A DNA stretch of 64,000 nucleotides, from NCBI RefSeq assembly GCF_001638985.1, contig NW_017265158.1:310001-374000 (forward strand), written 5' to 3'. The translations under genes were made by a program, and so were the position numbers. Origin of the DNA: Phycomyces blakesleeanus NRRL 1555(-) (taxonomy: Eukaryota; Mucoromycota; Mucoromycetes; Mucorales; Phycomycetaceae). The notes under the pieces were generated by a model. That model was not told the DNA's origin, searched no databases, and worked only from the letters and a program-made list of their open reading frames with translations. Numbering within the stretch: the stretch's first letter is position 1; each line of letters starts with the position of its first letter. Positions 27,858 to 61,395 of the stretch are shown in pieces.

Positions 27858-28305
27858 CAAATGTCAATTTATACTCCTTCTCATAAGCTGTGATACCCTT
27901 TGTGATAAGGTCTTTCTCCCCTTATATATATATATCATTGGAGCTTAGCTTGGCTCCGCGTGTATTTCTATATTTTTCTCTTTTTATTTATTTTCATATT
28001 AAGTTCAATTTACGCTGAATTTATGATAAAGAAAAATGCTATAGTTTAAGAGATTAAGACTTTTTTTCTAATACAATATATTTATCTAAATTAATATTAA
28101 TGTTAATTAAAAGTCTTCTAGATCTTAAGCTAACAAGCATCTCACTGTTGGGTAAATGTCACAGGATGATAACAGATCAACATTTTGATATTGTGTAACT
28201 TGGACTATAAGATGAAGAAAACTATAAAATAGTAAAATACAACGCATTTCCTACTGATGTCTTTCAATCCTACAATATTTGCTAGTCCCAACTCTAAAAA
28301 AAACT
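27858..28305. other. Intergenic spacer between kinase and nicotianamine synthase genes
   Basis: 448 bp, AT-rich, with (TA)n at 27924-27936. It holds the 3' flank of the kinase and the promoter of the next plus-strand gene. A frame upstream of 28306 is open but lacks an ATG. Confidence 0.45.
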
Positions 28306-29262
28306 ATGGTGAAATATCTTTTGGACGATGAAGATACCTATTACTGGTCCCAGCCTACCAAAGCGATGTCTAGTAACACTGAGACGGCTATTATAGATAC
28401 TGACTCGGCTCAATCATTAGTTCAAGAGATTGAGGAAATATACTACAAGCTCTCGAAGATGACATCTCTCCATCCTGTGGCACCTGTAAATGATCTCTTT
28501 ACGCGGCTTGTTCATATAGCTACATTTACATACAATCCCTCGATCGTAAATTTAATCCTTTTATGCCCAATAATCGAACGTCTCTTAAATCCTTTGAGAA
28601 TACTATGCTCCACGGCCGAGTATCACTTGGAGATGCAATGGTCTAAAGAGCTTGGGCTGTACCAGGCAAATGAGACAGTGACTCCTGAAATGATCTTGTC
28701 TCGTTTCATTTATTATGATAACTATGATGCCTTGACTTGTCTGGAACTCGGTGCTCTTCATGGCGTGGGCGGAATTATGGCTCATATTGTATTTGTTGGT
28801 AGTGGACCTCTTCCACTTTCGTCTATTCTTATGGCTCGCAAATCTCATAATATCCGACGCATTGATAATATTGACATGAGTCATTCTGCGACTACGGCCG
28901 CTACGGAACTCACGAATAAACTTGGGATGCAAGATCGTCTGAAACATTACACAATTGAGGCAAAGGACTACGACGGCTATGAGAAGGCAGACGTGATTAT
29001 ACTGGCTGCATTGGTTGGAGAATCCCACGAAGACAAAATGGAGTTCCTAAAGTTTATCTCAAAACAAATGAAACCTGGTGCCTTGATATTAACGCGAAGT
29101 GCCCATTCCTTGCGTAAGCTCCTTTATGTTCCAATTGAGCCATTCCATGTAAACTCTTGTGGCCTTCAGACATTGGTTGTGTCGCATCCTCAAAATGAAA
29201 TAGTCAACTCGATCTTGATTGCAAGACGGCTTGAAAATGTCGATAGTATGAATAATTCTTGA
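28306..29262 (+). CDS. Nicotianamine synthase-like enzyme
   Basis: Single exon, 318 aa, ATG at 28306. The family blocks are IVFVGSGPLPLSSILMA (about residues 161-176, the S-adenosylmethionine-binding Rossmann motif), YEKADVIILAALVG, and PGALILTRSAHSLRKLLYP-type sequence (here RKLLYVPIEPF). Nicotianamine synthases join three aminocarboxypropyl groups from SAM to make nicotianamine, a chelator of Fe, Ni, Zn and Cu. They are known in plants, some archaea and some filamentous fungi. The gene is intronless while its neighbours have many introns, which could reflect transfer or simple intron loss. No transporter or metal-responsive neighbour is visible. Confidence 0.85.
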   Translation: MVKYLLDDEDTYYWSQPTKAMSSNTETAIIDTDSAQSLVQEIEEIYYKLSKMTSLHPVAPVNDLFTRLVHIATFTYNPSIVNLILLCPIIERLLNPLRILCSTAEYHLEMQWSKELGLYQANETVTPEMILSRFIYYDNYDALTCLELGALHGVGGIMAHIVFVGSGPLPLSSILMARKSHNIRRIDNIDMSHSATTAATELTNKLGMQDRLKHYTIEAKDYDGYEKADVIILAALVGESHEDKMEFLKFISKQMKPGALILTRSAHSLRKLLYVPIEPFHVNSCGLQTLVVSHPQNEIVNSILIARRLENVDSMNNS

Positions 29263-37370: not shown

Positions 37371-37902
37371 TGTTGTGGTGGTTGAAGTTGAAGAAGTTTT
37401 TAAGAGGAAGAATTCAAGATTTGAAATTAGGAACGAAGATTCGTGAGAACTTGTGTAGGTTTTGTTTATTGAGAAAGATTTTGTATCAAAGTTTGACCAG
37501 GTTCCTACACTGAACTACTACTGCTATTTATATTGTTTTGGATTGGGAAAATTATATGACTGGGGTCAGGTAATCGATCCTATCTGAGCCTTAATCAGAG
37601 CAACGTGATCTTGGGATAATTAATGTATGATTAATTATATAAATGTGTGTAGTCCCAATGAAGTATTAACATCGAAAGTAAATGTGTTTATGAGTTATAA
37701 TTATGCTTATAATAATTCACTGATGTATCCCATATTATGGTGATATCATCATATGAAATATAATCACTATCATGCATGCTAAACCTGTGTGTTAAATAAT
37801 AAAGTAATCGGTAGACACCTTTGACTGGAATAGCTGAGGCCTTATATTATTTCCTTCAGACTTATTCTCAATTACAGCAGTAGTCAATACTCATTTACAA
37901 CA
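37371..37902 (-). mobile_element. 3' LTR of the intact Gypsy chromovirus (family A)
   Basis: 532 bp, with TGTTG...CAACA ends. I see no difference from the other LTR at 43000-43531 on reading them side by side. On the minus strand a purine-rich stretch GGTGGAGGATAA lies directly before it and suits a polypurine tract. The outer flank ATTGG (37366-37370) is the target duplication. Confidence 0.9.
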
Positions 37903-38078
37903 TTATCCTCCACCAGATTCAACAATACCTTTTGTTGATTCGGCAAAACATCTCATCTTAACTATTTATTAATTTGTCGAATTGCTCAATTTCATTTGGG
38001 TCAATTACGCTCATAATTTTTTTTTTTTTTATACTTCAAGAGATCTGCACTGTAAACTCAGCTCCGTGGATTACGTGT

Positions 38079-41000
38079 TTATTTTATCAAATTTTTTGTT
38101 GCTCTTCTTTTGGACATTCTTTCTTCTCTACTCAGTGCGGTAGGAAGCTTACTTCCATTGTACTCTTCAATGCGATTCCTTTTTATTTTACCATCATGTC
38201 TTGGAATTTGAACTGTTTTCTTTAATGAGGCTGCACTCTTATTCACTAATTCCGTGGCTCTCTCATTCTCTAAACGTTCGATTTCTCTGACCTTCTTCCA
38301 ATACTTTTGTATTATTGTGGGATTGGTAAAATCGTTAGCCATTTGCCATGTGTTTGCCCGTTCACCATAACCAACCCATTTTACCAGATATTCTCTTTCA
38401 CCAGCAGCACCACGATGATCGCGAATGTCTTCAACTTCATAGAGCTCATTCTCAATTGTAGATTCATCGATGGTAACCATCTTGAGTTCTGAGGGTGTGT
38501 AATTTCGGTGCAACAATTCTCCTTGCTCATCCTTTAGTTCATACGATCCTCCTTTATTTCTTCGAACCACTGTATAAGGACCTTCATAGATTGGTGCCAA
38601 TTTATTTGGACGATGTGGTAATCTGACCATTACGTGTGTTCCTTTGGGGATGTCTATTAAGATGTTCTTGTGATCGTATTTCTTTTTTAACTCTTCGTTG
38701 ATCCGCAAGACTCTTTCGTTTATGGCAGGGAATATTATTTTATCCATATATTCAATCTGCTTCTCCAATTCATCAATTGTTACCGTGTTTTTGGGAAGAG
38801 AGAATTTTGCTTTATCACCATACTCATCAGGTACATTAACTCTGCGAGCATACATTAGTGAAAAGGGTGCACTCAGTGTCTTTTGAGGAATATGTCTGTT
38901 TATGCATAGCTGAACAATTGGTAAATAGTGACACCAGTCATTGCTGTTCGCTCTCATCATTTTCCGTACAGTATTCTCTGCAACTTTCACACTGGCTTCA
39001 GCAATACCATTTCCTTGTGGATGATATGCCGTTGAATATCTTCGATCAATACCAAGCTCTTTCGATAGGCTTGCCATTAAAGAATTTCTAAATTCCAACC
39101 CATTGTCACTTTGCATTACTTTGGGAAAACCATAATCTCCAAATATTTTTATCAATGCCTTAGCTATTGTTGTCGGGTTTTTGTTTGGTAATGGTCTCAA
39201 GATGATATACTTGGAACAAACATCAACTAACACTAGCATATACGTGTGACCATCCTCTGATACTGGGAATTCACCGCATAAGTCAATTGCAACATGATCA
39301 AATGGTCGGAAAGCTACAACATTGGTCAATGGGTGATATCCTCTTTTGCTGATGTTGTGCTTCTGACATTCAGAGCAAGAACGAATAATCTCCTTTGCTT
39401 CTTCATATATATTAGTCCAATGTAATCCTTGAGAGTGAAGATCATTCACCATAGCTTGACTACCAAAGTGACCAAACGAATGTGCTTCTTTTAACAAGCC
39501 ATTTCGCTTTTCTTCAGGAGGCGACATATAGTCGGAAGTCTCTGATACATTTTCGATGAGTTGTGTAGCAAGTACATTTAGCACTTTGTCCTTACTGTAC
39601 TTTTTCTTACGAATAATAACTTTATCTTTAGATTGCAAGTGTTTTGTTCTGATTTTTCTCAATCCATCATCCTCCACCAGCTTGTAACTATCCTCTGGAG
39701 GATACAAGCGACTCAACAAGTCTGGTAGTTTATTCAACAAACCAGGAATATGGACCACCTTAAAATCAAAGTCAAGAAGTGTCTCAATCCAGCCAATTAT
39801 CATGGGATTAGCAATTTTTTGTGTGTGAAGATAAGTGAGTGCTTTATGATCAGTAAAAATGGTGAACTGTCGGCCCCATAGAAATGGACGGAATTTATCA
39901 AGCGCCAAAACGACTGCATACAATTCTCTTTTGGTGGTGCTCCATCGCCGTTGGGATGGGCTCAGGGAAGTTGACACAAAACTAATATACTTATCACGCC
40001 CTTGATTGTTGCGCTGAAAAAGCAGGCAGGCTACTCCATAAAGGGAAGCATCTGTGGCCACATACATTTCACGTGACATATCTGCGTAATGAAGAATTAA
40101 ATCCTGATGCAGTATGTCCTTTAATGCTTTAAAGCTTCTTGTCTGCTCATCTGTCCATAGCTCAGCTACATTGTTGGCATGACTTAATCGTGAAATAGGT
40201 TCAGCCACCTTCGAGATCATGGGAATATAGTCTCTGAAGTAATTAATCAAACCCATAAATTGCTGAATTTGTTTCGCAGTTTTAGGAATAGGCCATTTAT
40301 CAACGTTTGTCAACTTTCGCTTATCAACCTTGGTGCCTGTCTCATTGACGACAAAACCAAGCAATCGCACTGAATGTTGAAACCAGACACATTTATCAGA
40401 GTTTAGAATCAACTTCGCCGATGTCAATCTATCAATCACTATTTTTACATCCTTAACATGCTGCTCAAATGTTTCGCTAGCCACAATACAATCATCAACA
40501 AAATTCTGCACACAGTCAATTTTATCAAACAAAGTTGCCATGACATGTTGAAATTGTGATGTAAGCATCTTCAAGCCAAAGCAGCCTTTAATGAAGCTAT
40601 ATTGTTGCCCATCTAAATGAGTGAATGTTAATTTATGAACATCTTCAGGTGCAACTTTGAAACGATGGTAGGCATTCGATAAATCCAATGTGGTGAAAAA
40701 TTTCTTTCCACTCAAATTCTGGAATATCGTTTGGATTTTAGGAATTGGATAGTTGAATGTGGGAGGTAGGATCTGATTCAATAATCGCACATCTAGACAA
40801 ACTCGGTGACTCACAATCTCTCCAGCTTTGTTTCTTTTAGGCACAAGCAACATAGGACTGTTGAAGGAAGTATTGGTCTTGGACTTGACAATCGTGCCTG
40901 TCTCAAGCCATTCTTTTACTTGTTTATCAAGTGTTGGTCGTAGAGCATGGGGAATAGGATATTGACGTCTATAAGCTGTGGCGCCTTCTTTTGTGGGTAA

Positions 41001-42980
41001 TCTAATTAGAGATTCTGATAAAGGACAAGAGGACTCGACTGGGATTTTCTTATTTTCATCCAGTGAGGCCTGAATTGACTGAATAAATTCTGCTCGCTGT
41101 ATTTCCGTACCAGCTGGCGAATTATCCGGTTCAAACTTTTTCTCTTTATCGATATTTAGATTCTCATACACAGCGGCATAGTCTTTAGCGTTATCTGAAT
41201 GAATATATTCTCCTTCGATATCGTATGCAACATTAATCAATCCGATGTTCATTTTTGTTAAGATATCTCTTCCAAGAAGAATATCAAAATTAAATCCTGT
41301 ATTAAACTCTAACACCTCGGGTGCATGCTTAAACGTAATTCCATTCACATATTTAAAATTTAAAGGATCAGTTTTTCCCAATCGCTTAGTACCACTATTC
41401 TTTGACAAGAAAGTGAAGGAACCATTTGATGAATTTATTTTATTTATATTTAAATTTTCATTCAAACATTGTAAACTAATGAAAGTGCGTGCACTGCCAG
41501 TGTCAATCATTCCAAGTAGTTTGTGGTTCTCTACAATAATAGGAGTGGTTAGATTAAATGCATCATTGGCTTTAACCCTTCTCTCAATTTTGTCAAGTAG
41601 GTACTTACAGTCGAAAGACATGTCTTCGAGTTCCAAGTCGACACTATTTTGGATCGCCTTGAGCACTTGCTCAGACTTCTCCTTGGCAGGGACCTGCGAG
41701 ACCATCAGGACTGGCTCACTGTCCTTACAGACGTGGCCACGGAAGTAGTTTTCTCCACACCGCCTGCAGGGGTTGCGCTTGGTGGGGGCAGCTACTTTGG
41801 CCTTGTTGTTGGCCAGGGTGAAGCATTTGCTCGACTCATGTGTAGTATTCTTACCATGGTGCGAGCAGAAGAAGGAACGCTCCGGCTTACTGCTTCGGTG
41901 CTGCTGGTTGTTGCTGGAGTGCACCTTCTTGCGAGGGTACGCCTCCATTCTCTTCTTCTCCATTCTCTTCTCAGTGTGCATGTTGGCACCAGGAATGAGC
42001 TGAGTAGCTTCGGCATACATGCGATTGTCGTCGCCAAGGATGTCTCTGCCAATCTGCGTCAACTGCTCCACAGTCCAATCTCTTTTGGTCTCGCCATTGA
42101 AGTCCAATCTGGTCATGGTGAGCCGCAAGAGTGTCTGTACTTGCCTAGTCAAGGAAGCGAGGAAGCGGTCGGCAACACGAGCATCGTTTTTGGGGAGGCC
42201 GGCATCATACACAGCCTGAAGGAACTTCTTGGAGTAATCTCCAATCGACTCAGAAGGAAGCATTACCATGGTAAATACCTCTTTTACCGAACGGGATGTC
42301 ACCAAGCGCGATCCATGTCTTGCTGTAAAGCAGATCTTGGCCGCATTCCAATCTACACACTTCTTCAAATCCATCTCTACCCATCCATCGTCACTATGAG
42401 GCAAGCAGAGCGGTAAAAATCTCTTCCAAACTAGTTCAATGTCCTGAAGGGACGACTCAATAACCTTTTGGAAGGTGCGAAGGAAGTGGTCTACTGAGTG
42501 AAAGACCTCTTCATTCGGGAAGGATCTAATCACATCGTCTGCCAACTGGAACTTAGGAAGATCTCTTCTATTAAGAGTCAACCCTCCAGTGCGACTACTC
42601 TTCTCTACAACTTTCACAGAAGGCGAAAGGTACTGACTGCATGCTATTTCTATATCTATCATTTCTTTGACGCGTCTGACCTTATTAAGGGCTAATTCAG
42701 CTGCTTGCTCATCGTTCATAGCGTGAGCAGTGCTGACAGCCTCTACATGCTGTTGAAGTTCTAGTCTAAGTTTCTCTGACAAAGACAAGACTGTTGTAGC
42801 AGCATTCGCTACCAAGGGACGAAGGGGAGAGGGAGCAACAAATTGTCCAGGGGTGGAGCTGGCAAAGGAGATGTTGTCACTCAGACTGGCGATGAGGTCC
42901 TCCTCAGTCATGACGGACATGGCATCCTCATCATGAGCAGGGATGATGGCGGCGGGATAGTTCTCAGCAGAGGGGTTCAT
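38079..42980 (-). CDS. Gag-Pol polyprotein with C-terminal chromodomain
   Basis: 1633 aa in one frame; the ATG lies only 19 bp inside the 5' LTR end. Gag occupies about residues 1-450 with a Cys/His segment (CSHHGKNTTHESSKC, then CRRCGENYFRGHVC). Protease: IDTGSARTF. Reverse transcriptase: LDLSNAYHRF and FVDD in place of the usual YxDD. RNase H: ATDASLYGVACLLF and FTDHKAL. Integrase: an H-H-C-C zinc part ending CSECQKH, then the DDE core with AIDLCG, SDNGLEF and NGIAEASVK. The chromodomain is at about 1510-1570 (YLVKWVGYGERANTWQ), the mark of chromoviruses, which uses chromatin marks for target choice. No frameshift separates gag and pol. After the LTR no obvious tRNA-complementary primer site (TGG...) is seen. 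Confidence 0.93.
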   Translation of the reverse strand: MNPSAENYPAAIIPAHDEDAMSVMTEEDLIASLSDNISFASSTPGQFVAPSPLRPLVANAATTVLSLSEKLRLELQQHVEAVSTAHAMNDEQAAELALNKVRRVKEMIDIEIACSQYLSPSVKVVEKSSRTGGLTLNRRDLPKFQLADDVIRSFPNEEVFHSVDHFLRTFQKVIESSLQDIELVWKRFLPLCLPHSDDGWVEMDLKKCVDWNAAKICFTARHGSRLVTSRSVKEVFTMVMLPSESIGDYSKKFLQAVYDAGLPKNDARVADRFLASLTRQVQTLLRLTMTRLDFNGETKRDWTVEQLTQIGRDILGDDNRMYAEATQLIPGANMHTEKRMEKKRMEAYPRKKVHSSNNQQHRSSKPERSFFCSHHGKNTTHESSKCFTLANNKAKVAAPTKRNPCRRCGENYFRGHVCKDSEPVLMVSQVPAKEKSEQVLKAIQNSVDLELEDMSFDCKYLLDKIERRVKANDAFNLTTPIIVENHKLLGMIDTGSARTFISLQCLNENLNINKINSSNGSFTFLSKNSGTKRLGKTDPLNFKYVNGITFKHAPEVLEFNTGFNFDILLGRDILTKMNIGLINVAYDIEGEYIHSDNAKDYAAVYENLNIDKEKKFEPDNSPAGTEIQRAEFIQSIQASLDENKKIPVESSCPLSESLIRLPTKEGATAYRRQYPIPHALRPTLDKQVKEWLETGTIVKSKTNTSFNSPMLLVPKRNKAGEIVSHRVCLDVRLLNQILPPTFNYPIPKIQTIFQNLSGKKFFTTLDLSNAYHRFKVAPEDVHKLTFTHLDGQQYSFIKGCFGLKMLTSQFQHVMATLFDKIDCVQNFVDDCIVASETFEQHVKDVKIVIDRLTSAKLILNSDKCVWFQHSVRLLGFVVNETGTKVDKRKLTNVDKWPIPKTAKQIQQFMGLINYFRDYIPMISKVAEPISRLSHANNVAELWTDEQTRSFKALKDILHQDLILHYADMSREMYVATDASLYGVACLLFQRNNQGRDKYISFVSTSLSPSQRRWSTTKRELYAVVLALDKFRPFLWGRQFTIFTDHKALTYLHTQKIANPMIIGWIETLLDFDFKVVHIPGLLNKLPDLLSRLYPPEDSYKLVEDDGLRKIRTKHLQSKDKVIIRKKKYSKDKVLNVLATQLIENVSETSDYMSPPEEKRNGLLKEAHSFGHFGSQAMVNDLHSQGLHWTNIYEEAKEIIRSCSECQKHNISKRGYHPLTNVVAFRPFDHVAIDLCGEFPVSEDGHTYMLVLVDVCSKYIILRPLPNKNPTTIAKALIKIFGDYGFPKVMQSDNGLEFRNSLMASLSKELGIDRRYSTAYHPQGNGIAEASVKVAENTVRKMMRANSNDWCHYLPIVQLCINRHIPQKTLSAPFSLMYARRVNVPDEYGDKAKFSLPKNTVTIDELEKQIEYMDKIIFPAINERVLRINEELKKKYDHKNILIDIPKGTHVMVRLPHRPNKLAPIYEGPYTVVRRNKGGSYELKDEQGELLHRNYTPSELKMVTIDESTIENELYEVEDIRDHRGAAGEREYLVKWVGYGERANTWQMANDFTNPTIIQKYWKKVREIERLENERATELVNKSAASLKKTVQIPRHDGKIKRNRIEEYNGSKLPTALSREERMSKRRATKNLIK

Positions 42981-42999
42981 GGTAGTTCACGAAAAAAAA

Positions 43000-43531
43000 T
43001 GTTGTGGTGGTTGAAGTTGAAGAAGTTTTTAAGAGGAAGAATTCAAGATTTGAAATTAGGAACGAAGATTCGTGAGAACTTGTGTAGGTTTTGTTTATTG
43101 AGAAAGATTTTGTATCAAAGTTTGACCAGGTTCCTACACTGAACTACTACTGCTATTTATATTGTTTTGGATTGGGAAAATTATATGACTGGGGTCAGGT
43201 AATCGATCCTATCTGAGCCTTAATCAGAGCAACGTGATCTTGGGATAATTAATGTATGATTAATTATATAAATGTGTGTAGTCCCAATGAAGTATTAACA
43301 TCGAAAGTAAATGTGTTTATGAGTTATAATTATGCTTATAATAATTCACTGATGTATCCCATATTATGGTGATATCATCATATGAAATATAATCACTATC
43401 ATGCATGCTAAACCTGTGTGTTAAATAATAAAGTAATCGGTAGACACCTTTGACTGGAATAGCTGAGGCCTTATATTATTTCCTTCAGACTTATTCTCAA
43501 TTACAGCAGTAGTCAATACTCATTTACAACA
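43000..43531 (-). mobile_element. 5' LTR of the intact Gypsy chromovirus (family A)
   Basis: 532 bp, reads as a copy of 37371-37902. On the minus strand, transcription would start within it and enter Gag-Pol. The ATTGG target duplication follows at 43532-43536. Confidence 0.9.
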
Positions 43532-46900: not shown

Positions 46901-47538
46901 TTGTTGGGGGGCATGCCACGTCCTTTACAATTGTGTTGAAGCACATCTGCAATCTACCAAGTATGAAGTTTCGTGCAGATGTTCTCAAAGCTAAATTTTG
47001 TATCAGATCACGCTTTCTGCCTGCCCAGTTCCTTCTGTCTCTTTTACACCGCCATCATACCATCTATTCTTCACTTGTCTCCTTGGGAAAAAACAACCTT
47101 CTGTCACATCTCCCTCCAACACTCAAACTTCGAAGCCCTAGTGCTGTAAAAAATCATTTTGAAAGCATTAGAGAAGCTGGATTTGCAACCTTTCTCCAGT
47201 CCAATACACAAGTTCTCATTCAAGCATGCTGCCCAGTTCTTGGAGTTGATCCAATCTTGTTTTTGCCAGCCTCATGTGTGGAACGTGGCTGTTTGATTCG
47301 TTGGAGAATGAGATAGTTGCCAGGCAAACCAAAGGAATGTCCTTGTGGATCTGATCACATCTCACGGCGCCACTTGTTGAATTGTCCACTTGTTCCTGCA
47401 ACACTATTTGAACAGTTGCCTCAACCTGACCATGACCAGATACACAGAATTGATTTTGCCATCACATCCTTAAGAACCGCAACCTGCATACTGGATACCA
47501 CTGATTTCTATTCTCTGGCACATAGATGTTATATATAA
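43912..47538 (+). pseudogene. LINE A ORF2 (endonuclease-reverse transcriptase), broken
   Basis: The endonuclease part (to 44607) contains GDFNVRLGSVTGD, SSIIDLFITN and GSDHRLLSLS, motifs of APE-type LINE endonucleases. After the solo LTR (44743-45133), relics run to 45771 (MAPGPDHIRAEMLKP). The reverse transcriptase part at 45820-47316 has YWPISLTS, VVAFLNIKAAYD, GVLQGSVLS and LLFANDVATF, in which the catalytic FADD has become FAND. The C-terminus (47317-47538) has CPCGSDHISRRHLLNC, a Cys/His knuckle usual at the LINE ORF2 end. A TAG near 44030, stops near 44605 and 45769, and the active-site change show it is dead. Confidence 0.8.
44743..45133 (+). mobile_element. Solo LTR (family F) with ATGCT target duplication, inside LINE A
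   Basis: 391 bp, starts TGTTGTATCCAACATAATTG and ends ATATAACA, with ATGCT at 44738-44742 and 45134-45138. It is homologous in inverse orientation to 32004-32397. Its insertion post-dates LINE A. Confidence 0.9.
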
Positions 47539-48173
47539 TCCTGATGGTGACTATTCACATGAGACTGAACATGGTGCTCTTTGGATATAATTTAGACTTT
47601 TTCTTTTCTTTCATAGCTCTCCACTTTTTATTGTTCTTTACTCCCTTTATCTCTCTTCTTTCTCTTTTGTTCTTTGCTGTCTGAAAAGTTCTTTGTTCTG
47701 CAATTCTGTCTCCTCCCTTTCACTGTTACAACTATTTTTACAGCTGCAAAGTGGAGAGCAGGTTCAGCCATTGAAGCTAGTATGATTTGATCTTCTCTTT
47801 CCCCTCTCTTTTTTTTGTCTTTTGTGATCCCTTGGGACTTTTTTATATCTTATTTTTGTACTTTAAAGACTATATGATCTATAGATCGCCAGCAATATCT
47901 CCTTTAATAAAATATAATCTTTAATCTGAGCTAAATGGGCACCTCTCTTTCACGTAAGCTTCATGTTTTTAAATTTTGAGTTTTTTATAGTTTGTATTCA
48001 TACAATTCTATCATCAATTCATCCAAAATATTGCTTCAACCATTGCATCCATTGTCAAAAACAAATTTCCTATTGTTCCTGCCATTTTATCACCAATTTT
48101 CACATTTTCTCTGCCGATTGCTGCCATCTTGAGATCATCACCAAACATGTCACAATTGTTGCCTGCTAATTGC

Positions 48174-52198: not shown

Positions 52199-52677
52199 TG
52201 CTATATCTGCTCTGCCTTCATCAGCTACTTTTCCCCGTCCAATGTATTGGAAGGCGCTTCACACTATTCTCTGGCATATTGATATCATTTGTAATCCGGA
52301 TGGAAACTATGCCCATGAATTTGAACATGGCTCACTGTGGTGTTCTCAGTAGTTATTTTTTCTTTATTTTCTCCTCTTCTTTTTTGTTTATTTTTATCTT
52401 AGTTTATTGTACCTCATGAAATGTTTTCTGTTCTGCAACTCTGTCTCCTCCCTTTCACTGTTACACCTTTTTACACAGCTGCAAAGTGGAGAGCAGGTTC
52501 AGACTTTTAGCTTATTAGTGTTAGTTCTCTTCTTCTCTTTCTATTTTTTGTCTTTTTGTGATCTTTTTAGACTTTTTTTTATCTTTTTCTTTTTGTACTT
52601 GGGAGGCTATATGATCTATAGATCGCCAGCAATATCTTCTTTAATAAAACATAATCTTTAACCTGAGCTAAATGGGC

Positions 52678-53570
52678 TTCGGATACTGTCATGTGCGTTG
52701 TGGGCAGGTCCGGCTTTTGGCTATATTGTGGTGTCCGGTACTAGAAGATCAGTCTGCTTGGTGAGTTTGTCTGGTAGTTTGTCATGACTTGTCGTCCTGG
52801 TTATAAGAGGCTGACATCAACGCTTTGTTGATGTGGTGCTGTGCCCTTGATGGTGAGCGGAGAATTTTTCTGTGCACAGAAAAAATCTCATTTCTGCTCC
52901 CTGTTCCTTCTACATACAATACTTTTTCCTTTTCCCTTGTTAACATATTTGTCTACATTGTACTCATTCAAAATCATGGTCCCCCATGCTAGTAACATTT
53001 CTCTTCTACAATGCACATAATTCATCCTGCTGACATCTCTGTACAACATCAGTACCTTTATTATTATATTTTTTACCATATTTTTATTCATATATTTTAT
53101 CTTTGCTGTATTGATTATTCATCATTCTATTTTTACTAACTTTATTTTTCCAAACTTCTATTATCAACTTAAAATCTTGCCAACTATAAAAAGAGAAGCA
53201 AACTCAACTCAATAAAGAATTCATTCAGTTTTCAGTATCTTTTTCTTGTTTTCTTCTCTTTGTGGTCTATACCATCTTGTGACATAACATATCGGTTCCT
53301 TGGTTTTAGGAAGATTGTTTGTTGGTTTTGGTCTCTTCGTTGGTTATTACTTTTCTGTTTCGTCATTTTCTTTTCATACACCTTTCTTTCTCTTTCAATT
53401 TTAACAACGATTCTATCGGTTGTTCTCTCTTTTCTTACCTGTCAACTATTGCTGCTTGCCGCCTTTTGCTGTATCCGTCTTCTGTTCTATTCTATTATCT
53501 TTGTATTTTATTTGCCAAGTGATCTGTTACAATCTACAACAAACCTAACATATGACGCGTCAATACTTAT
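52678..53570 (+). mobile_element. 5' leader of a third LINE copy (C)
   Basis: It follows the 15-mer that ends LINE B, as the LINE A leader follows tRNA copy 1. 52740-52917 matches 57060-57258 closely, and 52918-53570 is matched in inverted orientation by 54579-55243. Its distal part (TTTGCCAAGTGAT...ACGCGTCA at 53511-53562) is shared with the LINE A leader at about 36550-36605. No ORF1 follows, so the copy is truncated. Confidence 0.6.
52814..52899 (+). ncRNA. Two conserved hairpins in the LINE leader (putative RNA structure)
   Basis: ACATCAAC-GCTTT-GTTGATGT (52814-52834) is an 8-bp perfect stem. A longer imperfect stem runs from GAGC (52855) to GCTC (52899) around TTTTTCTGTGCACAGAAAAA. Both recur at about 57154-57174 and 57200-57244. 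Conservation in otherwise diverged leaders suggests a functional RNA element; this is inference. Confidence 0.4.
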
Positions 53571-54578: not shown

Positions 54579-55243
54579 ACCACATGTGACAAGTATGATG
54601 TGTGATGTGTTAAATTTGTTGTAGATTCTAACAGATTACTTAGTAAATAAAATACAAAGATAATAGAATAGAATAGAAGAGAGATGCAGTAAAAGATGAT
54701 AAACAGCAATAGTTGACAGGTAAAAAAAAGAGAGAACAACTAATAGAAGTATTATTAAAAGTGAGAGAGAGAAATGTATGAAAAGAGAATGAGGAGACAG
54801 AAAAGTAATAAACAATGAGGAGACCAAAACCAACAAACAACCTTCCTAAAACCAAGGAACTGATATGTTATGTCACAAGATGGTATAGACCACAAAGAGA
54901 AGAAAACAAGAAAAAGATACTGAAAACTGAATGAATTCTTTATTGAGTTGAGTTTGCTTCTCTTTTTATAGTTGGCAAGATTTTAAGTTGATAATAGAAG
55001 TTTGGAAAAATAAAGTTAGTAAAAATAGAATGATGAATAATCAATACAGCAAAGATAAAATATATGAATAAAAATATGGTAAAAAATATAATAATAAAGG
55101 TACTGATGTTGTACAGAGATGTCAGCAGGATGAATTATGTGCATTGTAGAAGAGAAATGTTACTAGCATGGGGGACCATGATTTTGAATGAGTACAATGT
55201 AGACAAATATGTTAACAAGGGAAAAGGAAAAAGTATTGTGTGT
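54579..55243 (-). mobile_element. Distal part of a fourth LINE leader (copy D), inverted
   Basis: Reverse-complement homologue of 52918-53570. Its proximal part now lies at 57022-57261; the two were parted by the inversion described in the findings. Joined through the TGTGT duplication they give the same order as copy C. Confidence 0.65.
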
Positions 55244-55776
55244 TGTTGTAAATGAGTATTGACTACTGCTGTAATTGAGAATAAGTCTGAAGGAAATAAT
55301 ATAAGGCCTCAGCTATTCCAGTCAAAGGTGTCTACCAATTACTTTATTATTTAACACACAGGTTTAGCATGCGTGATAGTGATTATATTTCATATGATGA
55401 TATCACCATAATATGGGATACATCAGTGGATTATTATAAGCATAATTATAACTCATAAACACATTTACTTTCGATGTTAATACTTCATTGGGACTACACA
55501 CATTTATATAATTAATCATACATTAATTATCCCAAGATCATGTTGCTCTGATTAAGGCTCAGATAGGATCGATTACCTGACCCCAGTCATATAATTTTCC
55601 CAATCCAAAACAATATAAATAGCAGTAGTAGTTCAGTGTAGGAACCTGGTCAAACTTTGATATAAAATCCTTTCTCAATAAACAAAACCTACACAAGTTC
55701 TCACAAATCTTCGTTCCTAATTTCAAATCTTGAATTCTTCCTCTTAAAAACTTCTTCAACTTCAACCACCACAACA
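55244..55776 (-). mobile_element. Solo LTR of the Gypsy family A (left partner of an inversion)
   Basis: About 533 bp, minus orientation, complete ends (TGTTGTAAATG...CCACAACA in plus reading). Its own flanks do not match (TGTGT left at 55239-55243, TAAAT right at 55777-55781), but they match, as reverse complements, the flanks of the LTR at 57262-57793. Confidence 0.9.
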
Positions 55777-56126
55777 TAAATCCTTTCCACAAAGCCATAG
55801 TCAAAAGATATGGCCTAAGCAATAACTCAATCATGTATTAATTACTAAGATATATATTTTGTACTTGAATTGACATTGATAATATTGACATTGAATATTT
55901 TATTTTTGTAGTTTTTTTTTATATATTTTATCTCTATTTATCTTTCTATTAATTTTTATCTCAATTGTCAACTTTTTTTACAATCAATATTTTTTTGAAA
56001 CTTTTATGAAATACTCAGATTTGACCCCCCAAAAAAATGGGATTATTACAGTAATCATCTCTGACATCAGAGATGAAAATATTGTTCTCAAAATCTTGTC
56101 CTATTGTCTTGTCCATAAGGATAGCC
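55777..56126 (+). pseudogene. Displaced 3' end of the MULE gene with its TIR
   Basis: The plus frame from 55777 (TSD TAAAT, then PFHKAIVKRYGLSNNSIMY and TAA at about 55836-55838) continues the minus-strand MULE frame that stops at 57794 (FTWPKIN). 56020-56126 is an about 100-bp inverted counterpart of 60920-61021, the other terminal repeat, ending AAGGATAGCC. Confidence 0.75.
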
Positions 56127-56319
56127 TAATAATACACTGATGTATCCCATATTATGGTGATAACATCATATGAAATATAATCACTGTCATGCATGATAAA
56201 CCTGTGTGTTAAATAATAAAGTAATTGGTAGACACTCTTGACTGGAATAGCTGTGGCCGTATATTATTTCCTTCAGACTTATTCTTAATTACAGCAGTAG
56301 TCAATACTCATTTACAATA
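56127..56319 (+). mobile_element. Fragment of an older family-A LTR cut by the MULE
   Basis: Matches the 3' 190 bp of the family-A LTR with several substitutions. TAATAATA at 56127-56134 is the complement of TATTATTA at 61022-61029, an 8-bp MULE target duplication. The outer flank TGGTC (56320-56324) is the complement of GACCA at 61371-61375, the LTR's own 5-bp duplication. Confidence 0.8.
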
Positions 56320-56493
56320 TGGTCAAACCCACTGGGAATCGTAAACAAAAATAAAAGAATAAAAAGAGGATAGAAAGATAGATAACTTTTATTGAATAAA
56401 ATAATATTCTCTTTCATTCAATAAAAGTTATCTATCTTTCTATCCTCTTTTTATTCTTTTATTTTTGTTTACGATTCCCAGTGGGTTTGACCA
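56320..56493. repeat. Perfect palindrome: 78-bp arms, 18-bp spacer
   Basis: Arms 56320-56397 and 56416-56493 are exact reverse complements (start TGGTCAAACCCACTGGGAAT). Both arms resemble the 3' end of a C-type LTR placed head to head. Confidence 0.92.
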
Positions 56494-56549
56494 ATTTTGG
56501 CTGTGTTATAGTATTAGAAGAATAACCCAGATCGACAACAACAAACAAC

Positions 56550-56911
56550 TGTTGGACATTATTTTGATGAATCCAAGAAATTGGGATAATTGACCGCAGC
56601 AGTTCTGTATATCAAAGATACCTCATAGATAACGAACTGCAGTAATGTCTTGTAAAGATTAACCACAGTAACATCTTCTGAGCATCAACCGCAGTAAAAA
56701 GACTTCTCTTGTAATTAAATAGAGTATAATAGTTTACTGCGGATAATGTGCAGTATTAGTTTAGAAAACTATATAAGACAATTCAATTCCTATCAATAAA
56801 AAGCACCTTTTATCCTCTCTTCGATTTTACATATACTCTCCGATCCCCAGTGGGTTTGACCTTTTGACTTTGCTATAGTAAAAGGAAGACCATCCCAGAT
56901 CAGGAACGACA
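56550..56911 (+). mobile_element. C-family solo LTR (copy C4) next to tRNA-Ile copy 2
   Basis: 362 bp, starts TGTTGGACATTATTTTGATG and ends CAGGAACGACA; CAAC lies at 56546-56549 and 56912-56915. It ends 36 bp from the tRNA, the same position and orientation as C3 next to copy 1. Confidence 0.8.
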
Positions 56912-56947
56912 CAACCAACTAAATCAGCCATGCTAAAAATGGTAAAA

Positions 56948-57021
56948 TGCCCATTACAGGGGTCGAACCTGTGGCCTTGGCGTTATTAGCACCACGCTCT
57001 AACCAACTGAGCTAAACGGGC
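56948..57021 (-). tRNA. tRNA-Ile(AAU), copy 2
   Basis: 74 nt identical to the copy at 35497-35570, with the same stems, AAT anticodon and box A/B. T-rich runs follow its 3' end (TTTT, then TTTTT) and can serve as Pol III stops. It lies inside the inverted segment 55777-57261. Confidence 0.95.
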
Positions 57022-57261
57022 TTTAGATGTTTGTCACGTGTGTTGTAAGTAACTCATGCATTTAGCTATGTCGTGGTGTCTGGTACTGGAAGGTCAGTCT
57101 GCTTGGTGGGTTTGTCTGGCGGTTTGTTGTGACTTGTCGTCCTGGTTATAAGAGGCTGACGTCAACGCTTTGTTGATGTGGTGCTGTGCCCTTGATGGTG
57201 AGCGGAGAATTTTTCTGTGCACAGAAAAAATCTCATTTCTGCTCCCTGTTCCTTCTACACA
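57022..57261 (+). mobile_element. Proximal part of LINE leader copy D
   Basis: Directly follows tRNA copy 2; from about 57060 it matches 52740-52917 closely, including both hairpins. It is cut by the LTR at 57262. Its continuation is the reverse complement of 54579-55243. Confidence 0.65.
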
Positions 57262-57793
57262 TGTTGTGGTGGTTGAAGTTGAAGAAGTTTTTAAGAGGAA
57301 GAATTGAAGATTTGAAATTAGGAACGAAGATTCGTGAGGACTTGTGTAGGTTCTGTTTATTGAGAAAGATTTTGTATCAAAGTTTGACCAGGTTCCTACA
57401 CTGAACTACTCCTGCTATTTATATTGTTTTGGATTGGGAAAATTATATGACTGGGGCCAGGTAATCGATCCTATCTGAGCCTTAATCAGAGCAACGTGAT
57501 CTTGGGATAATTAATGTATGATTAATTATATAAATGTGTGTAGTCCCAATGAAGTATTAACATCAAAAGTAAATATGTTTATGAGTTATAATTATGCTTA
57601 TAATAATTCACTGATGTATCCCATATTATGGTGATATCATCATATGAAATATAATCACTATCATGCATGCTAAACCTGTGTGTTAAATAATAAAGTAATC
57701 GGTAGACACCTTTGACTGGAATAGCTGAGGTCTTATATTATTTCCTTCAGACTTATTCTCAATTACAGCAGTAGTCAATACTCATTTACAACA
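57262..57793 (+). mobile_element. Solo LTR of the Gypsy family A (right partner of the inversion)
   Basis: 532 bp, close to the LTRs of the intact element. Flanks ACACA (57257-57261) and ATTTA (57794-57798) do not match each other but are complements of the flanks of the LTR at 55244-55776. Confidence 0.9.
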
Positions 57794-60700
57794 ATTTATT
57801 TTTGGCCAAGTGAAGTTTCTGATAGGTTTACGCTTCACAAGGAGAAAGTGGTTGATGTCCAAGATGATGATTATTAGTTTAAATTTTTCTGGTGTAGTAG
57901 TTAATGGAACAAAGAGACAGTCGCCTGTTTCTCTTAGAGTGTTCCAATATACAGCTATTGATCTATTGAACACATCTGCTACAAGTTGTGGATGGTTAAT
58001 CGTTCCAAACCAATGTTGCTGTGGGAGGGGTGATCTTTTATCTTTGAGGCTGATTATGAGCGGGTTTGTGGATGCAGATATGTTGTCATTCTCTATTCTT
58101 CTCTAGTAATATGTATGCTGATATTTTAGGTATGCTTCTAGCATATTTTCTTTAACTTCAGACCATTTCTTCTGGTCTTGATATATCTCCATTGCTATTG
58201 CTTGTTATCTACAGTTGCCATCTGCTTTGGGAGAAAAGACTTTGGTTATATGTTTAGGAGCAATAATAAGATTTTTTAATATTGTGTGATCGATTGGCAA
58301 GCCAAGATTGGTAATATTTTGCAAGGCTTTTTGCTCTTGAGTTGAGGATATTTGTTTTCTAGAAAATAGAGCAAAACTTGAGTGAAATAGATTTATGTAA
58401 TGTATTATAAATGAATACTCACTTTTTTTGTTCTTTTGTTATTTTAATTTTTTTGTATCTTTTTCTTTTTTAGTTTCAATGCAGTGCTCTAATGCAATCA
58501 TTTTACGCTTTGTATTTTTGGGTTGGCCTTTGATGGCTTTTACTATTGTTGGACTATTAAGATCCTCAAGTTCCTGCTTGGTTATTTTTTCTAGTATGTT
58601 TTTTATTAAGTTATGTATATCTATTTGTTTTTGTTTGCTGTGTGTAATGTGAAAGCCTTCATGAACAAGCTTAAGATCATAATCAAATTGAGGCAATATA
58701 GTTGTTATTTTAGTAATGTTTGCTGGTACTGGTTCTGCGTTGTTAATTGTCAAGTGGTCTATATACAATTATATATTATATAAGAAAATAATGTTATAAC
58801 TATTATATGTATTATCTTCTCCTTCTAGATAATCTTTTCTCCAGCATCTTGGAATTAGGGAAATTGGAATTGTATTAAAAGTAGCGAGTGTATAATAGTA
58901 TGGTAGGAGATAGTTGTAATATAAGAGGCATTTGCACTCTTTGATAAATTTTTCAGATATGATTGATTTTGATAGTTCTAGTTTGATTTTGTACATTGCA
59001 AAGCAGCTAATTTTTTGACGAATGTTATTTAGTCTCGCTCCATTGACTTTGTCAAACACAACTTCTGTACTCTCTCCAAGACACTCTGTCATTAATCTGC
59101 ATTTACGATCATCAACCTATTTAATATACAAATATATTATAGCAAATAATTATAATTAGAGAACTTATTCAACTAACATATAAAATAAAATAAGATAATG
59201 CAAACTTACCAGTTCCTGATACCACTTTTTCACTTTTAGTGTCACTGTCATCAATTTACCAGAAGAGGTACCAAGAGAATGCTTGAGGGAAGCATGTGCA
59301 CTTTCTGCGTAATTGGAGATATGATTTCCAAAGTGAGAGTATTTATAAACGTACATGTTTATCTAGTTTTCCTTGTCTTTCATTTTTCTAATAAATTATA
59401 TAAAAATTACCAATTTTTTATAATTAATAAGCCATTTTTGTCAAGTTCAATGGCTCTATATATATCTTTCAAGAAAATTACTGGTGGTTTTCCCCTGATC
59501 CTTGCAATTCTCCTTTGCAAACTCGAGGTACACATCTGCCTCTTTCTTTACTTCTTCGGGTATCTCGCACTTCAAAGCAATCTTGTCAAGAAACCCTGCC
59601 AAAGTCTCCAAAAGCTCTCTCTTCTCACTGCTCTCTTCTCCCTTCATCATCGGTAGCAAGTCTTTTTTGAAATTATTTTTTATATGCTTATAGCATAAGA
59701 CTTGCTTCGACTCAGAGAAAACACAGGTAATTACATTTTGCAATGCTTTCTCATTGTCAGTTATAAACACATTAGGAAGAAGAGATATGTATGTGTTTGT
59801 TTGTGTTGTTGTTGCTGTATTGTTGTTACTATTGCTGCTGTTATTGTCTTCAACATCTGGCCAAACTGCATCATGGAGACAACGAAGTACCCAGAGATAA
59901 TTCTCAACCATCTCGTGCTCTATCCAAGTACCAGCAATAGAAAATGTCTTCAATGTTCTGCAAGATTTACCAGTTACATTACTGGTACCAACAATATTGA
60001 CAAATGTCATTCTATGGCTATTTGTCTTATATGTAGCATCAATGGTTATTGTCTCAGACATTCTTTGCGCTTTCTCAATTGCATCCTTGTGAACAAAGAA
60101 AACTATGTTGATTCTTTTATCATCTGTATTATCAACAGTATAGTGGATATAGAAGTCCAGGTCTTGTAAAGTGGTAATAAAACCAAACATCTCCTTTCCT
60201 TTGTAATCTTTTCCAAAGTGCTGCTTGATGTTCTCAATGTCTTGACATACAACATTGGTGTACCCACATATCTTCAAACTATTGAAGATGGTTGATACAT
60301 CATCGTTATTCTCCAGATGTCTTGTTACAAGAGCCATGGCCTCAAGCAAAAATTTTTGGTGCATAGCATATGCCCTATGATCTTCCTCAATTGGATGGTT
60401 ATGTTGTGCCTCGCACAAGTGTACAGCAACTCTTCCATCTTTTTTCTTAGAGGCATACACGAAGCATTGGCAGCCATGCTTTTGTGTATCCTTGACACGT
60501 TTTCTTTCCCATTCAGGAAGGGGACTCTCTTTGCTGGCAGAGGTTTTTAAAGCAATCTTTGCAGCCTTATGAGTGTCTCTATATTCGCCTGCATGCTTAC
60601 AGATTATCTTTATGTGAGTTTCTGATGAAAACATGGTGGAAAATGCAATATTATGCATGACACCATATGCCTTGACAGCTTCACGAACAGCTACAGTTGA

Positions 60701-60836
60701 AGAAAATTGTCTTCTAACAAGAAAGATAGAATTAAACTCAGTCAAAGCAGTATTGTACTTCTTGGAAAAATTCTCACTGACAATGACAAGATCATTGGTG
60801 TTGTTAGTGTTGTTGATGTTGCTCATGTTAAATGTC
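57794..60836 (-). pseudogene. MULE transposase with FAR1-like N-terminus, damaged SWIM finger and OTU-like domain
   Basis: The longest exon runs from ATG 60836 to about 59470: a FAR1-like DNA-binding part (VREAVKAYGVMHNIAFS ... CQCFVYASKKKDGR ... HNHPIEED), then the MULE catalytic part with ITIDATYKTNSHRMTFVN and VFITDNEKALQNVI. The next exon (about 59350-59215) has SNYAESAHASLKHSLGTSSG. About 59092-58790 has a SWIM-like segment CKCLLYYNYLLPYYYTLATF, in which the expected LPC and H ligands are both Tyr. About 58350-57800 is an OTU-like cysteine protease: ADGNCR (DGNC motif), a stop, QAIAMEIYQDQKKW, another stop, HWFGTINHPQLVADVF and LDINHFLLVKRK (catalytic His). In-frame stops and lost zinc ligands indicate a dead copy. 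Its last codons are displaced to 55777. Confidence 0.75.
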
Positions 60837-60919
60837 AAAAAAATTATGCACTGATGTTGTTGTAAAAAAAAAGGCAGTGATTTTATTGACAATCCAAAGA
60901 ACTATTTATCTAGTCACTC

Positions 60920-61021
60920 CCACAAAAAAAAATGGGATTGTTACACTAATCATCTCTGACGTCAAAGATGGATATCTTTTCCTCAAAATCTTGTCCTGTC
61001 GTCTTATCTGTAAGAATAGTC
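60920..61021. repeat. 5' terminal inverted repeat of the MULE
   Basis: About 100 bp ending AAGAATAGTC at 61021, inverted relative to 56020-56126; shared core GGACAAGATTTTGAG (complement). The flanking TATTATTA at 61022-61029 is the target duplication. Confidence 0.75.
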
Positions 61022-61370
61022 TATTATTATAAGCATAATTATAACTCATAAACACATTTACTTTTGATGTTAATACTTTATTGGGACTACATGCATTTAT
61101 ATAATTAATCATATATTAATTATCTCAAGATCACATTGCTCTGATTAAGGCTCAGATAGGATTGATTACCTAACTCAAGTCATATAATTTTCTCAATCCA
61201 AAATAATATAAATAGCAGTAGTAGTTCAATGTAGGAATCTGGTCAAACTTGATATCAAATCTTTTCTCAATAAACAAAACCTATACAAGTTCTCACAAAT
61301 CTTTGTTTCTCAATCTCAAATCTTCAATTCTTTCTCTTAAAAACTTCTTCAAGCTTCAACCACCACAACA
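61022..61370 (-). mobile_element. Fragment of the older family-A LTR, other side of the MULE
   Basis: Matches the 5' about 345 bp of the family-A LTR with scattered substitutions; outer flank GACCA at 61371-61375. Together with 56127-56319 it forms one LTR interrupted by the MULE. Confidence 0.8.
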
Positions 61371-61395
61371 GACCAATTTTTGCTATGTTATAGCA

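Follow-up and report, generated by a model that had tools for sequence, protein, structure and literature searches.

Exchanged target duplications mark a 1,485-bp inversion, probably made by recombination between inverted long terminal repeats, in Phycomyces blakesleeanus

Two long terminal repeats (LTRs) of one family of Ty3/gypsy chromodomain retrotransposons, here LTR1 and LTR2, lie in opposite orientation in the 64-kb window of the Phycomyces blakesleeanus genome that we analysed (contig C25:310001-374000; coordinates without a contig name are positions in this window), and neither is flanked by a matching target duplication. The locus raises the question of whether the DNA between the two repeats has been turned round and, if so, by what process. 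Using comparisons within the same genome (53.5 Mb, 60 contigs), we confirmed on sequence grounds that 55777-57261 runs backwards with respect to the insertion order of the surrounding elements. Homologous, ectopic recombination between inverted copies of this one family is, in our judgement, quite probably the cause.

As assembled, LTR1 is enclosed by TGTGT and TAAAT, and LTR2 by ACACA and ATTTA. Reverse-complemented, the two inner flanks read ATTTA and TGTGT; both 5-mers are thus reciprocally exchanged without a mismatch, and turning the 1,485 bases of 55777-57261 yields TGTGT/TGTGT and ATTTA/ATTTA (computed from the 5-base flanks). The two LTRs are 97.2% identical, with 15 alignment columns distinguishing them, and have TG...CA ends. 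They are embedded in a long interspersed nuclear element (LINE), a Mutator-like element (MULE) with terminal inverted repeats (TIRs) and an older LTR of the same family, arranged as follows.

54585-55243, minus strand: part of LINE copy D left in place (from flanks and paralogs)
55239-55243: TGTGT, outer half of target duplication A, within the LINE leader (flanks read directly; single 5-bp target in 14/14 LINE copies)
55244-55776, plus strand: LTR1, 533 bp, sense orientation of the chromodomain Ty3/gypsy element (polarity from the open frame of a full-length copy)
55777-55781: TAAAT, inner half of target duplication B (flanks read directly)
55777-57261: inverted segment, 1,485 bp (from flanks, restored features and paralogs)
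55777-56126: MULE end, inverted, including the second TIR (from flanks, TIR and paralogs)
56127-56319: older LTR of the same family, inverted piece, followed by TGGTC at 56320-56324 (from sequence comparison)
56127-56134: TAATAATA, the MULE duplication, within the inverted piece of the older LTR
56948-57021, minus strand: tRNA-Ile (AAT) gene, inside the inverted segment
57030-57261, plus strand: start of the leader of LINE copy D, inverted (from flanks and paralogs)
57257-57261: ACACA, inner half of target duplication A (flanks read directly)
57262-57793, minus strand: LTR2, 532 bp, antisense orientation of the element (from sequence comparison)
57794-57798: ATTTA, outer half of target duplication B, within the MULE (single 5-bp target in 10/10 followable MULE paralogs, 14 tested)
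57794-61021, minus strand: main part of the MULE, not inverted (TIR; PF10551 MULE, E 4.9e-11)
59456-60901, minus strand: MULE transposase piece (PF10551)
61022-61370: other piece of the older LTR, followed by GACCA at 61371-61375

Several further features are restored by the same flip. The older LTR, split between 56127-56319 and 61022-61370, has GACCA on its right and acquires GACCA on its left once the inverted segment is turned, and the LINE leader of copy D becomes continuous. MULEs are defined by a MULE transposase domain, long TIRs and a duplication of 8-9 bp. Here, the domain is PF10551, the TIRs at 56031-56134 and 60926-61029 (83% over 104 bp) are in direct orientation as assembled and in inverted orientation after the flip, and the 8-bp TATTATTA duplication appears only with 55777-57261 turned round. 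The inverted segment holds no open frame of at least 250 codons; its contents are pieces of mobile elements and the tRNA gene.

Each junction was then compared with paralogs from this genome, its outer and inner sides being aligned one at a time; we took the best 14 + 14 of 40 + 40 listed places (MULE + LINE leader), with the query copies of the window excluded. At the MULE junction, all ten paralogs that could be followed on both sides show an overlap of exactly 5 bp between outer and inner flank, the inner side not having been found in the other 4 of the 14 tested. At the LINE-leader junction, the overlap is exactly 5 bp in 14/14 copies, one of which (L025, 52663-53574) itself lies in the window. 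The paralogs are not all independent, as equal match values mark L012/L013 and L026/L028/L029 as likely duplicates of one another. In each case, the 5-bp overlap is the single copy of the target that preceded insertion, and no base has been lost or gained at either junction. Because both sides overlap by the 5-bp target in the paralogs, 55777-57261 is inverted relative to the insertion order. These empty sites are the strongest evidence for the inversion and are independent of the sequence of either LTR. In a search of four MULE paralogs, FTWPKINPFHKAIVK runs straight through in L012 and L018, while the searched peptide string was absent from L010 and L014.

An earlier note on this window had proposed a 1,485-bp inversion between two inverted LTRs, and the exact reciprocal swap of 5-mers together with the empty sites at both junctions bears this out. 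The flanks, TIRs and paralogs likewise agree with its claims that the flip restores both 5-bp duplications and rejoins the MULE with its second TIR, the split older LTR with its GACCA duplication, and the leader of LINE copy D. It had also counted at least five independent junctions in agreement; several kinds of evidence do agree, but all of them concern two physical junctions, so their independence was overstated.

The polarity of the LTRs follows from a full-length copy of the family at 37371-43531, with LTR copies at 37371-37902 and 43000-43531. It contains one open frame of 1,635 codons on the minus strand (38079-42986), in which the domains RVT_1, RT_RNaseH, rve and Chromo (reverse transcriptase, RNase H, integrase and chromodomain) occur in this order. 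Because this polyprotein frame lies on the minus strand, 55244-55776 is the sense copy, and the strand signs given previously to the two LTRs are opposite to the coding strand.

To place the locus among its relatives, we located 298 LTR 3′ ends: 275 exact genome occurrences of a 20-base stretch at the 3′ end (87 + 54 + 71 + 63) and 23 among the first 100 places of a further list reaching only contig C12. Both 5-bp flanks were read for 137 LTRs (85 + 43 + 9), in a non-random census that favoured near inverted pairs; 8 fetched LTRs without a recognisable 5′ end (7/50 and 1/10) and 13 incomplete copies were dropped. LTRs of the family have TG...CA ends and a 5-bp target duplication. The duplications are exact in 79 of the 137, differ by one mismatch in 12 and by two or more in 46, a class that includes LTRs of full-length copies. 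A few 'mismatched' entries (for example, C4:487801) are probably not true ends, because the 5′-end finder tolerated 3 mismatches. Element interior adjoins 14 of the first 128 LTRs.

Only one other exact reciprocal swap was found among the 137 LTRs, between C7:1272809 (minus) and C7:1274270 (plus). Read in LTR orientation, the flanks are CTTTG/TTCTG and TTCTG/CTTTG, and the LTR ends as read leave an inner segment of 398 bp (1273341-1273738). No paralogs of this site were present among the loci fetched earlier; a genome-wide search found the right outer flank at 8 other places. Since the inner end adjoins it in 8/8, sharing 5 bp with it and reading on the opposite relative strand, the right junction has an empty site. 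The inner end is also carried by C6:1276381, with no right outer flank there among the matches listed.

Swaps were found in 2/40 inverted pairs at distances up to 10 kb with both flanks read (2/15 under 3 kb and 0/25 at 3-10 kb), where the pairs share LTRs and were not recounted after the last 9 LTRs had been added. Both real pairs are immediate neighbours in opposite orientation. As a chance control, we shuffled the 3′ flanks of the 44 LTRs with at least two flank mismatches; any exact reciprocal pair arose in 280/20,000 shuffles, a figure that does not take in the neighbourhood of the paired LTRs. One further candidate, C1:2743986-2744518 with 2780156-2780688 (CACTC/TGGTC and its complement), was rejected as a swap since outer matches outer and inner matches inner; these two LTRs (L087 and L088) face opposite ways at a distance of about 36 kb, have the same mismatched flanks and are an inverted duplication of one LTR site. 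Five near-swaps with 3/10 mismatches, two of them involving twin LTRs that share their flanks, were left out of the count.

Sequence comparison shows how the insertions are nested, that the footprints are exchanged and what both sites were like when empty; a crossover in the living fungus is what we infer. In the proposed sequence of events, a MULE had inserted into an older LTR, and two copies of one Ty3/gypsy chromodomain retrotransposon, facing opposite ways, landed about 1.5 kb from each other, one in the LINE leader (target TGTGT) and the other in the MULE (target ATTTA). A crossover inside sequence common to both copies would have reversed the intervening DNA, so that either LTR came to carry a 5-bp footprint of both sites, one from each, while the MULE gene was cut and the tRNA-Ile gene turned round.

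Which stage the recombining copies had reached, solo LTR or still full-length, we also infer. One or both could have been full-length elements of about 6 kb whose chimaeras later shrank to solo LTRs, a course that we consider a real possibility while leaning against it. Full-length copies would have offered roughly ten times more homology, and the genome contains 17 direct LTR pairs at full-length spacing; on the other hand, this course needs further deletions at the breakpoints, for which nothing in the sequence asks. Both stages leave the same footprints. The term 'solo LTRs' used previously describes the present state and was too strong for the state at recombination.

Could the order instead be an artefact of assembly, with a short stretch misoriented between inverted repeats that are nearly the same? 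At 1,485 and 398 bp, the inverted segments are small, and the repeats that enclose them run to hundreds of copies in the genome, as the count of exact 3′ ends attests. Leaving aside the two swaps, just 3 of 13 inverted pairs under 3 kb have both own duplications exact, and each of the remaining 10 includes at least one LTR with differing flanks. Against this, there is no N anywhere in the 64-kb window, the 15 columns at which the LTRs differ provide landmarks, a single read much shorter than 1 kb is enough to span an LTR of 533 bp, and 91/137 LTRs retain a footprint of their own that is exact or off by one mismatch. We regard a misassembly as unlikely. Replication template switching between the inverted LTRs is a step less probable still. 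Short spacing between inverted repeats favours such switching, and its end product can equal that of a crossover, so that the product alone does not separate the two; the site nevertheless bears no additional footprint in the form of a duplication or inserted bases, and the overlap is exactly 5 bp in every followable paralog. Finally, some other process could have made the inversion, and the two LTRs could have landed at its breakpoints in separate insertions. This would take exact hits at both breakpoints plus a reciprocal 10-base coincidence, with shuffling yielding exact pairs as rarely as described above, and the empty sites are intact; we found no point in its favour and consider it scarcely credible.

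Several observations weigh against recombination between inverted copies as the explanation. Both swaps are among the closest pairs, as an assembly flip would also produce, and at the C7 site the left junction is identified by TTCTG alone. One genome of the species was compared, and the un-inverted allele was not seen in it. In addition, the 15 differences between LTR1 and LTR2, analysed with a haplotype table, pairwise association and a half-exchange scan, gave a weak hint of exchange and no single breakpoint: the nearest-neighbour fit improves by 2 mismatches under a half-exchange, a gain reached by 34/549 control pairs, and the scan returns two separate stretches of equally good breakpoints. 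The orientation bias described next carries its own reservations, as the count comes from one of several distance bins, the clusters are not independent and insertion preference could contribute.

For the orientation counts, each 3′ end was treated as a 533-bp LTR and full-length spacing was removed. Adjacent LTRs up to 15 kb apart are inverted in 56 cases and direct in 22 (p 1.5e-4, not corrected for the several distance bins tried), compared with 17:12, 9:9 and 15:17 at 15-30, 30-60 and 60-120 kb (41:38 for 15-120 kb as a whole). The family is also clustered: even spacing would give about 4.4 adjacent pairs at less than 3 kb, and 27 were counted. Recombination between direct neighbours would delete the DNA between them and leave one LTR, while inverted neighbours would survive, and the shortage of direct neighbours fits such loss. 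Among the first 128 LTRs, 23 have at least three flank mismatches and do not lie beside element interior, a set that includes both LTRs of the window inversion, the C1 inverted duplication and some nested or doubtful ends; mismatched-flank LTRs are the kind of remnant that deletions of direct pairs would leave. Given non-independent clusters and possible insertion preference, we take these data as supportive only. Close inverted LTR pairs might even act as standing inversion switches that flip the intervening DNA repeatedly, a speculative idea that we think rather unlikely. If it were true, the orientation of the segment would differ between strains, or between nuclei of one coenocytic mycelium, and LTR recombination over distances up to about 15 kb would be frequent enough to remove many direct-oriented neighbours.

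Rearrangements between LTRs are recognised by mismatched target duplications in yeast Ty/delta elements and human endogenous retroviruses. These share with our locus the kind of repeat and the diagnostic, but they are mostly deletions or single chimeric LTRs, whereas here both reciprocal products stand side by side. According to passages of the report on inversion 2z3 of Drosophila buzzatii, generated by the transposon Galileo, there are three hallmarks: the copies face opposite ways, their duplications are exchanged, and both copies are chimeric (PMC2775673). As these passages describe it, 2z3 resembles the window locus in having two opposite copies of one element at the breakpoints, target duplications that are exchanged and complementary with single target copies known, and no deletion or duplication at the breakpoints (PMC2775673). 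It differs in that Galileo is a DNA transposon and not an LTR retrotransposon, and in that 2z3 is polymorphic with un-inverted chromosomes sequenced, whereas the segment here is 1.5 kb and its empty sites come from paralogs; both Galileo copies were shown to be chimeric, whereas two of the three hallmarks are present here (PMC2775673). On these testable features, the window case is an inversion by ectopic recombination between transposable elements. The process is already known, and the site is a clean new case of it: an unusually clean, base-exact record of a retrotransposon-driven rearrangement, with both products and both empty sites in one assembly. Together with the shortage of direct neighbours, the second case offers a rough, testable measure of LTR-LTR recombination in an early-diverging fungus.

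The leader of the LINE begins close to various tRNA genes, at their 5′ ends (57022-57030 and 52663-52700; loci L025-L038). ARAGORN placed a tRNA at a distance of 7 to 29 bp from the leader both in the window (8 bp, tRNA-Ile) and in 7/14 LINE copies, namely Asp in L026, L028, L029 and L038, Arg in L034, Met in L036 and Glu in L037; L026, L028 and L029 may represent a single duplicated site. In L025, L030 and L033, inspection by eye shows what resemble remnants of tRNA ends. The pattern suggests a fungal LINE with a habit of inserting beside tRNA genes. Passages of a review name tRNA-targeting LINEs from Dictyostelium and relatives (PMC5911963). Elsewhere in the window, a LINE 3′ region at 52264-52677 matches 47508-47940 and the next leader match starts at 52663, which suggests a head-to-tail LINE insertion at one spot (52264-52700).

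Adjoining the TGGTC duplication of the older LTR, 56320-56493 forms a near-perfect palindrome with 82-bp arms that are 99% complementary and a 10-bp spacer. The window also carries a nicotianamine synthase gene at 28258-29262 (PF03059, E 5e-61), whose best named relative, among 92 proteins listed with E up to 1e-20, is from Phycomyces nitens (68% identity).

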